Assembly: GCA_003599755.1 (NCBI GenBank)
Contig: QZJO01000012.1
Coordinates: 1 to 57,289 of the forward strand
Reading direction: 5' to 3'
Length of the DNA stretch: 57,289 nt
From: Candidatus Parcubacteria bacterium
GTDB lineage: Bacteria; Patescibacteriota; Minisyncoccia; Sungbacterales; SURF-37
This document shows, piece after piece, positions 14,206-50,063 of this stretch (position 1 is its first letter; each line of letters starts with the position of its first letter). The position numbers and the translations under genes are program-made. The notes under the pieces were generated by a model, which was not told the origin of the DNA, searched no databases, and was given only the letters and a program-made list of their open reading frames with translations.

Positions 14206-14751
14206 ATGAAACGCATCATTATCGGAACATTCGCCTCCCGTGATAATGCGGAAAATGCCATCGGCCATCTGAAAGAGGAAATGGACATCAGCGACGATGA
14301 CATTTCGTTCATCTACCGCGACACTTCCGGCCGCACGCGGGAAGAAGATACCCGGAGTATGGGCGAACGCGGCGATACGCCGGCCGAAGGCGCGAAGCAG
14401 GGCGCGATCGCCGGAGGCGCACTCGGGGCGCTCGCGGGCATCGCGACGGTCATGGGAGTTATTCCGGTCATCGGCCCAATTTTCGCCGCGGGGCCCCTCG
14501 TCGCCGCGCTCGGTATCGGCGGCGCGGCGGGCACCACGGTCGCCGGCGCGGCCACGGGCGCGGCTGCGGGCGGCCTGATCGGGGCGCTGGCGAACATGGG
14601 CGTCGCGCGGGAACGCGCGGAACAATACGCGAGTCAGATCGTCGAGGGCAGCATCCTGGTTATTGCCCACGACGAGCGAGCCGATGAGGTTGCGGACGCG
14701 TTCGTACAATCCGGCGCGATCGAAGCGGAAATTTATATGCCGAACCCGTAG
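14206..14751 (+). CDS. DUF1269/YflT-like general stress-type protein with Gly-rich membrane segment
   Basis: IIGTFASRDNAENAIGHLKEEM...GALAGIATVMGVIPVIGPIFAAGPL. Confidence 0.65.
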   Translation: MKRIIIGTFASRDNAENAIGHLKEEMDISDDDISFIYRDTSGRTREEDTRSMGERGDTPAEGAKQGAIAGGALGALAGIATVMGVIPVIGPIFAAGPLVAALGIGGAAGTTVAGAATGAAAGGLIGALANMGVARERAEQYASQIVEGSILVIAHDERADEVADAFVQSGAIEAEIYMPNP

Positions 14752-48682: not shown

Positions 48683-49132
48683 ATGCCATCACCGACCAAA
48701 TCTCGGCGCACGCCGCCGGCAAAGCCGCATGTCGAACGCAAGCGTATCCTCATCGTGGAAGACGAGGCGGCATTGCTCGCGCTCCTGGCCGATACGTTCG
48801 GTGAAGAACATTTTGCGGTCTTTACCGCCAAAAGCGGGCGCGAGGGATTACGCGTCGCGTTCCGCGAACGGCCGGACCTCATCATCCTCGATCTTTTGAT
48901 GCCCGATATGGACGGTCTCGCGATGCTCGCCGCGCTCCGCCGCGATCGCTATAAGTGGGGCAAATACGTGCCGGTTATCATTCTTTCGAACCTCTCGAAT
49001 CCCGAAACCGTCGCGGCCGGCATGCGGCAAGCCGACGACTACCTGATCAAGGCCGACTGGAGCATGGCCGACCTGGTCCGCAAGGTAAAAGAAAAACTTG
49101 CCGCCGGCGCGACGTCGCGCGTGCATCCGTAG
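48683..49132 (+). CDS. Single-domain response regulator
   Basis: ILIVEDEAALL, LIILDLLMPDMDGLA, IILSNLSN. Confidence 0.9.
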   Translation: MPSPTKSRRTPPAKPHVERKRILIVEDEAALLALLADTFGEEHFAVFTAKSGREGLRVAFRERPDLIILDLLMPDMDGLAMLAALRRDRYKWGKYVPVIILSNLSNPETVAAGMRQADDYLIKADWSMADLVRKVKEKLAAGATSRVHP

Positions 49133-49135
49133 ACA

Positions 49136-49309
49136 AACACAAATCCCGGCGATCGCTCGCCGGGACCCGTATCACACGTTCTCGGAACCGGGATCCGCTT
49201 TCTTCGCACGTGAACCAGTAATTGGTGCCCATACTGCCCGAAGGCTAAGGACACATAAAATTTTGGTGTTACGACTTAGTCGAAGTGCGGCGCTTCCGAA
49301 AACGTGCTA
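49136..49309 (-). ncRNA. Candidate structured small RNA, unknown class
   Basis: Promoter TTGACT-N18-TATACT; 13-bp closing helix; internal helix; UUCG apical hairpin; terminator tcccggcga-gcga-tcgccggga-tttgtgttt. Confidence 0.55.
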
Positions 49310-49314
49310 GCTTT

Positions 49315-49344
49315 AGTATACTTCGCCGGAATTTAAAAAGTCAA
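49315..49344 (-). promoter_or_regulatory. Promoter of candidate small RNA
   Basis: Minus strand TTGACT (49344-49339), N18, TATACT (49320-49315). Confidence 0.6.
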
Positions 49345-49469
49345 TAGCACCGCTATCCATGGCATACTCACAACTTCTGCACAAGGTGTTCGATGCGCGC
49401 GTCGCATAGGTAGGGCGCGATAGAACGGCTTGCCTCCGGTGGAATTTCGTGCGGCAACTGAAATATACC

Positions 49470-50063
49470 ATGCAGCAGCAACCCAAACCAGGGCCCGCGC
49501 CGGCAAAAAACGGCAAATTGCAGTCGATCGTATTCGGCGGCGGCTGCTTCTGGTGTACTGAGGCGGTATTTTTACGTCTCAACGGCGTCCGGTCGGTCAC
49601 ATCCGGATACGCCGGCGGCGCCACGCCCCATCCTACGTATGAGGCCGTATCGTCCGGCCGTACGGGGCATGCCGAAGTCATTCGCGTGGAATATGATCCG
49701 ACCGAAGTATCGCTGCAAACACTCTTGGAAATATTTTTCTCAGCACACGACCCGACGACCAAAGATCGCCAGGGCGCGGACATCGGCTCGCAGTATCGTT
49801 CGATCATTCTCGCGACGACCGAAGAGCAGGCGGCCGCGGCGCGCGCCATGATTGCCGAGCTTGAAGCAGCGCGCGCGTTTCGGCACTCCATCGTCACCGA
49901 AGTGCGGATGCTGGATGCATTCTGGCCGGCTGAAGCGTACCATCAGGATTTTTACGCGAAAAATCCCGATCAGCCGTATGCCGCGGCCGTCATAACCCCG
50001 AAACTAAAAACGGTCGCGAAAAAATTCCCCGCATCGCTCAAACCGCGTCCGCAAGAACCATGA
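49470..50063 (+). CDS. msrA: Peptide-methionine (S)-S-oxide reductase
   Basis: FGGGCFWCTEAVF, GYAGGATPHPTYEAVSSGRTGHAE, IGSQYRS. Confidence 0.96.
   Translation: MQQQPKPGPAPAKNGKLQSIVFGGGCFWCTEAVFLRLNGVRSVTSGYAGGATPHPTYEAVSSGRTGHAEVIRVEYDPTEVSLQTLLEIFFSAHDPTTKDRQGADIGSQYRSIILATTEEQAAAARAMIAELEAARAFRHSIVTEVRMLDAFWPAEAYHQDFYAKNPDQPYAAAVITPKLKTVAKKFPASLKPRPQEP

Follow-up and report, generated by a model that had tools for sequence, protein, structure and literature searches.

The locus and its features

The window, by which is meant the whole stretch of 57,289 nucleotides of contig QZJO01000012.1 from a Candidatus Parcubacteria bacterium, carries a candidate RNA gene on its minus strand, in the intergenic region between a response regulator gene and msrA. 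The three neighbouring genes, which encode a MASE1-PAS histidine kinase, the response regulator and MsrA according to Pfam, all lie on the plus strand. The locus is composed of the following features.

48683..49132, plus strand: response regulator receiver protein (Pfam PF00072, E 7.9e-21), convergent with the candidate RNA
49135..49165, minus strand: putative intrinsic terminator TCCCGGCGA-GCGA-TCGCCGGGA-TTTGTGTTT (sequence, fold, genome-wide unit scan)
49175..49309, minus strand: structured core, made up of closing stem, inner stem, central bubble and apical hairpin (RNAfold)
49175..49187, minus strand: 3' arm of the outer closing stem, TTCCGAGAACGTG as DNA and UUCCGAGAACGUG as RNA (sequence, RNAfold)
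49195..49206, minus strand: 3' strand of the inner closing stem, CGAAG-AAA-GCGG (sequence, RNAfold)
49207..49224, minus strand: 3' strand of the central bubble, CAAUUACUGGUUCACGUG (alignments)
49225..49254, minus strand: apical hairpin GUGUCC-UUA-GCC-UUCG-GGC-AGUAU-GGGCAC (sequence, RNAfold)
49255..49280, minus strand: 5' strand of the central bubble, ACUAAGUCGUAACACCAAAAUUUUAU (alignments)
49281..49290, minus strand: 5' strand of the inner closing stem, CCGC-A-CUUCG (sequence, RNAfold)
49294..49306, minus strand: 5' arm of the outer closing stem, CACGTTTTCGGAA as DNA and CACGUUUUCGGAA as RNA (sequence, RNAfold)
49315..49320, minus strand: -10-like hexamer TATACT, 18-nt spacer to the -35-like hexamer (sequence, consensus scan)
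49339..49344, minus strand: -35-like hexamer TTGACT (sequence; consensus scan, 10/12 jointly with the -10-like hexamer)
49449..50063, plus strand: methionine sulfoxide reductase MsrA (Pfam PF01625, E 2.4e-62), divergent from the candidate RNA

The coordinates, pairings, promoter and terminator of the original prediction can all be read in the sequence, and its helices are those of the RNAfold minimum free energy structure. The outer closing stem has 13 bp, including one G-U pair. Folded as a single sequence, the 135-nt core forms one interrupted rod of -49.2 kcal/mol, and the rod with its closing stem, central bubble and apical stem-loop is present in both the minimum free energy and the centroid structures. 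None of 200 dinucleotide shuffles of the core was equally stable (z -4.06). The z score reaches -6.46 for the whole unit with its terminator, and the opposite strand of the core folds less strongly than the minus strand (z -2.06).

Transcription would start near 49308. At the other end, the terminator hairpin (49165-49144) is followed on the minus strand by the T tract TTTGTGTTT (49143-49135), the tail of which ends 3 bases from the stop codon of the response regulator gene. This tract is present on the minus strand only, in agreement with the earlier claim that the terminator is one in that orientation alone. An automated terminator scan did not list it, we think because G-U pairs lengthen the stem into the T tract. 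The small open reading frames that overlap the candidate RNA have no Pfam match, and a protein-coding reading of the locus was rejected.

Rarity of the transcription unit in the genome

Taken by itself, the promoter match is at chance level, with one found and 0.8 expected in 2 kb. Rods are frequent in this genome, which has a GC content of 59%, and at least 20 long-range pairs were counted in 212 of its 5770 intergenic windows. The locus could accordingly be read as no RNA gene at all, that is, as a rod that arose by chance in GC-rich DNA, or as what is left of an inverted-repeat element, next to a chance promoter match, with the hairpin at 49144-49165 merely ending the convergent response regulator message. 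That single-sequence folding is weak evidence, as stated in PMC8250186, also speaks for this reading.

Since promoter hexamers occur at chance and rods are common, the genome was scanned for whole units in which a promoter (9/12 or better) is followed by 90-300 noncoding nt and then a terminator. The scan covered 928,662 bases with tiles joined; its criteria were our own, and its gene calls were crude (longest open reading frames of at least 100 aa). Two units passed in the whole genome, and the candidate RNA is the only rod of the two, the other unit folding no better than its own shuffles (z 0.01). A promoter, a rod and a terminator in register are thus an unusual feature of this genome and, within the in silico evidence, the strongest argument for a gene. 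The candidate RNA is single-copy, and its two arms never recur as a pair elsewhere in the genome, as they might in an inverted-repeat element. Together with the exact and rare promoter-terminator register, the T tract confined to the minus strand and the stronger fold of the transcribed strand, these observations make the absence of an RNA gene unlikely. The locus very probably holds a real stand-alone orphan RNA gene.

Searches for known families and relatives

The original prediction had left room for a match to 6S, SRP or another Rfam family and for relatives detectable by blastn, and neither emerged. Rfam gave no match in the whole window at gathering thresholds, and at the locus, with E up to 10, it gave nothing except a partial chance match lying outside it. 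A blastn search with the unit in 55 relatives, in phages and in plasmids returned short chance matches only, and a covariance model made from the candidate RNA itself (R1) found no relative in 23 genomes of the order or 384 of the class. A 16-base pattern of the 5' bubble had two matches in viral contigs, both without the fold and attributed to chance. MsrA was too widespread to serve as a synteny anchor and led to unrelated phyla; the response regulator has numerous paralogues, and usable synteny was not found with it. The description of the locus as a minus-strand orphan gene for a structured small RNA is therefore upheld by a rare transcription unit, a strong rod, and the lack of an Rfam family, a second copy or a relative in these searches.

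Among housekeeping RNAs, the RNase P RNA (C8:6304-6864) and tmRNA (C2 from 19705, truncated by the end of the scanned tile) of this genome are encoded elsewhere, and their covariance models have no match at the candidate locus, which supports the earlier remark that their signatures are not recognised here. SRP RNA was not located in the Rfam-scanned parts of the genome (all except C11, C6 and part of C1), which leaves room for the candidate to be a diverged copy of it. However, the locus has no SRP match at E up to 10, and its apex is a UUCG-capped GCC/GGC stem that lacks the SRP domain IV arrangement. An SRP RNA at this locus is therefore very improbable.

6S RNAs in the class and phylum

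With E up to 0.1 allowed, the Rfam 6S model had matches in eight of the 286 class genomes searched, one of them above the curated cut-off. A covariance model built from these eight RNAs (R2) located 6S in 170 of the 384 genomes searched for the class. In the order, 10 of 23 genomes matched it at E up to 0.01, among them G001, which is the single same-family genome among those searched. A second model built from 99 members (R3) identified 6S in 11 of the 23 order genomes at E < 0.001, G001 again among them, did not confirm the weakest of the ten R2 matches (G019), and gave no match at E < 0.1 in 12 of the 23. It also found 6S in 123 of 380 phylum genomes, mostly of other classes. When ten loci of the R2/R3 type were rescanned with Rfam, a single weak 6S match was obtained. 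That the family modelled by R2 and R3 is 6S rests on the locus L152, whose Rfam score lies above the cut-off, together with a shared core, fold and within-order neighbourhood. Our literature search found no paper on 6S in these bacteria, subscription papers being mostly beyond its reach.

Members of this family across the class and phylum (loci L152-L263) are about 120-160 nt long and share the core GGGAG...ACCCACYUGG. The 99 class 6S RNAs measure 121-159 nt (median 138); a promoter scoring 9/12 or better lies immediately upstream of 75 of them, and 88 are followed within 80 nt by a T run. A competing 5' hairpin was considered as a further class trait and was not used as evidence, at least three of its four pairs being formed in only 34 of the 99. 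The motif ACCC(C)AC is kept even in the most diverged 6S RNAs of the order (L168, L272, L268 and L329). Two of these, L168 and L272, form a tandem pair on the minus strand of one small genome (G003:C16:14205-14333 and 14377-14496), 43 bp apart and both with ACCCAC. The G021 6S (L329:1567-1721, minus strand, G021:C34) is diverged, has the canonical core and lies at the ancestral site; known from its position and core motif, it escaped R3 also when the filters were switched off. In family f2 (for example in G002, G005, G010, G012, G014, G017 and G022), R3 found no convincing 6S although the genes beside the site are conserved. Within the order, 6S appears to have been lost or to have diverged more than once.

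Comparison of the candidate RNA with 6S

The candidate RNA shares with 6S RNA (SsrS, RF00013) a rod with a closing stem, a central bubble and an apical stem-loop, a similar size class and the organization of a stand-alone gene with its own promoter and terminator in silico. It differs in being shorter, in having no Rfam model match and in its unrecognisable conserved bubble bases. In the modelled fold, the closing stem, bubble and apical stem follow one another in the 6S order. Run with filters off, neither R2 nor R3 matched the locus in the candidate's own register, and comparison with the alignment of 99 members showed that the conserved core GGGA(G)...ACCCAC is missing. The length of 135 nt, span of 132, 27 long-range pairs and 10/12 promoter are all within the class-6S ranges; the interrupted T tract fails the T-run count used for class 6S.

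Against a sequence profile of the class 6S RNAs the candidate scored 9.7 (z 2.7), a value equalled by 12 of 1000 pair-preserving shuffles, and the score of its reverse complement was equalled by 205 of 1000. Among 5772 intergenic windows, with overlapping windows counted apart, the candidate's score ranked 37. The mean alignment to twelve 6S RNAs of the order gave z 1.8 (78/2000) for the candidate, and six further rods from the genome lay between -1.4 and 0.6. These scores are no more than suggestive of a weak, strand-specific sequence similarity to class 6S.

Compared with class and phylum members such as G001:C7:29955-30095 (L163), the candidate is alike in length, promoter spacing and a terminator placed right after the closing stem, and it likewise has an inner stem followed by an ACUAAGU-like bubble strand, with GGGCACC and CUGG in matching order. 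However, GGGA(G) and ACCCAC are replaced, the genomic site is another one, and the 5' bubble strand is longer, with 26 nt versus about 17 nt by eye in L157. This 5' bubble weakly resembles class strands such as CUAGACUAAGU in L175 and UUCGACUGAA in L168, and the 3' bubble is a partial match to the class sequence ACCCACYUGG...UGC that does not keep the ACCCAC core. By eye, ACUUC-GACUAAGU is common to the candidate and L175-type RNAs, and UUCGACURA/UGCGAA to the candidate and f3-type RNAs. The 6S RNAs of family f3 (L168 and L272 in G003, L268 in G006) share with it a UUCG/CGAA inner stem, a UUCGACURA-like 5' strand and a UGCGAA-like 3' strand, and the closing stem has 13 bp in both L168 and the candidate; f3 members keep ACCCAC, but the candidate does not. 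The likeness to f3, striking by eye, is not significant alone (313/2000). From the proposed 6S-type architecture, therefore, the shape, length and transcription unit stand and the weak strand-specific similarity is suggestive, whereas the Rfam 6S, R2 and R3 models and the core speak against it.

The ancestral 6S site in this genome

In the order, 6S is encoded near an ndk or nudix gene adjoining a cluster of M50 protease, rpsL, rpsG and fusA (neighbourhood genes were named by eye, save those from Pfam). The candidate RNA is not in this neighbourhood. The same cluster lies here on one contig, and the 6S slot between the nudix gene and the cluster, C2:72456-74181, is filled by other open reading frames, terminators and tRNA-Pro; a search of the slot for 6S with filters off gave chance-level scores. 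On this evidence, 6S was lost or moved in this genome. One of the open reading frames in the slot is GC-rich and DksA/TraR-like by eye, and a second has promoter-like and terminator-like sequences of its own. Between two conserved genes of the neighbourhood lies a further long rod-shaped intergenic hairpin (G000:C2:67668-67802, plus strand), which showed no 6S resemblance in the alignment test. Another contig has a tRNA gene within the long inverted repeat CCCCGCAC...GTGCGGGG (G000:C13:39803-39937).

Rfam gave no 6S match across this genome, and neither did R3 across its 928,662 bases (100% complete). The best competitors, among them an AT-rich locus at C13:44.6 kb considered as an alternative 6S, scored at chance level with filters off, and no second 6S candidate was found. 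Failure of a model is no proof that 6S is absent, because R3 missed the canonical-core 6S of G021, and a canonical 6S could sit in a gap of the assembly, which comprises 13 contigs.

As 12 of the 23 order genomes have no R3 match below E 0.1, this genome may simply have lost its 6S. The candidate would then be a lineage-specific structured small RNA unrelated to 6S, sequestering a protein or pairing with mRNA for example, and possibly connected with MsrA or with the kinase and regulator encoded next to it. The failure of every 6S model, the missing core, the confinement of the candidate to this genome among 384 class genomes and the many order relatives likewise devoid of detectable 6S make this reading fairly plausible, if less likely than not. 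Yet promoter and terminator, length, bubble and the weak similarity on one strand all agree with 6S, and no other candidate fills that role in the genome.

Proposed function and implications

6S RNA is a rod with a central bubble, in which the apical arm is the -35-like and the 3' bubble strand the -10-like region; polymerase copies a product RNA from the 5' bubble strand, and in vitro a 6S-1 trimmed to the bubble and two short arms is still able to run through the whole cycle (PMC8876501). By analogy, the single-copy gene described here would be transcribed from its own sigma-70-type promoter and stop at the intrinsic terminator, yielding a noncoding RNA of about 172 nt that starts near 49308 and ends near 49135 on the minus strand. 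Its predicted rod, opened by a large central bubble, would imitate an open promoter and occupy the RNA polymerase holoenzyme under nucleotide shortage; release would come when polymerase synthesizes a short product RNA on the 5' bubble strand as template. The fold, the rarity of the unit, the lack of a recognisable 6S, the replaced ancestral site and the weak similarity on one strand were computed, and transcription, polymerase binding, the product RNA and descent from 6S are inferred from them.

We tentatively regard the candidate as the diverged and relocated 6S of this genome or a functional stand-in for it, which is the best explanation and has a nearly even chance of being correct. The candidate is the best choice for the missing 6S, its sequence having drifted too far for proof. 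It seems improbable that a new, independently arisen and lineage-confined class of rod RNA replaced a lost 6S and binds RNA polymerase via a different bubble sequence. If the candidate is the 6S of this genome, it shows how far sequence can drift and a gene relocate while the open-promoter shape is kept.

As a by-product of the comparison, a 6S family emerges that, judged from covariance models, extends across the phylum and is largely missed by Rfam. The class-derived 6S model provides a testable tool, detecting 6S in 44% of class genomes and also in other classes, versus about 3% of class genomes by Rfam. Given this difference, what looks like a lack of 6S in these bacteria would mostly reflect a failure of detection.
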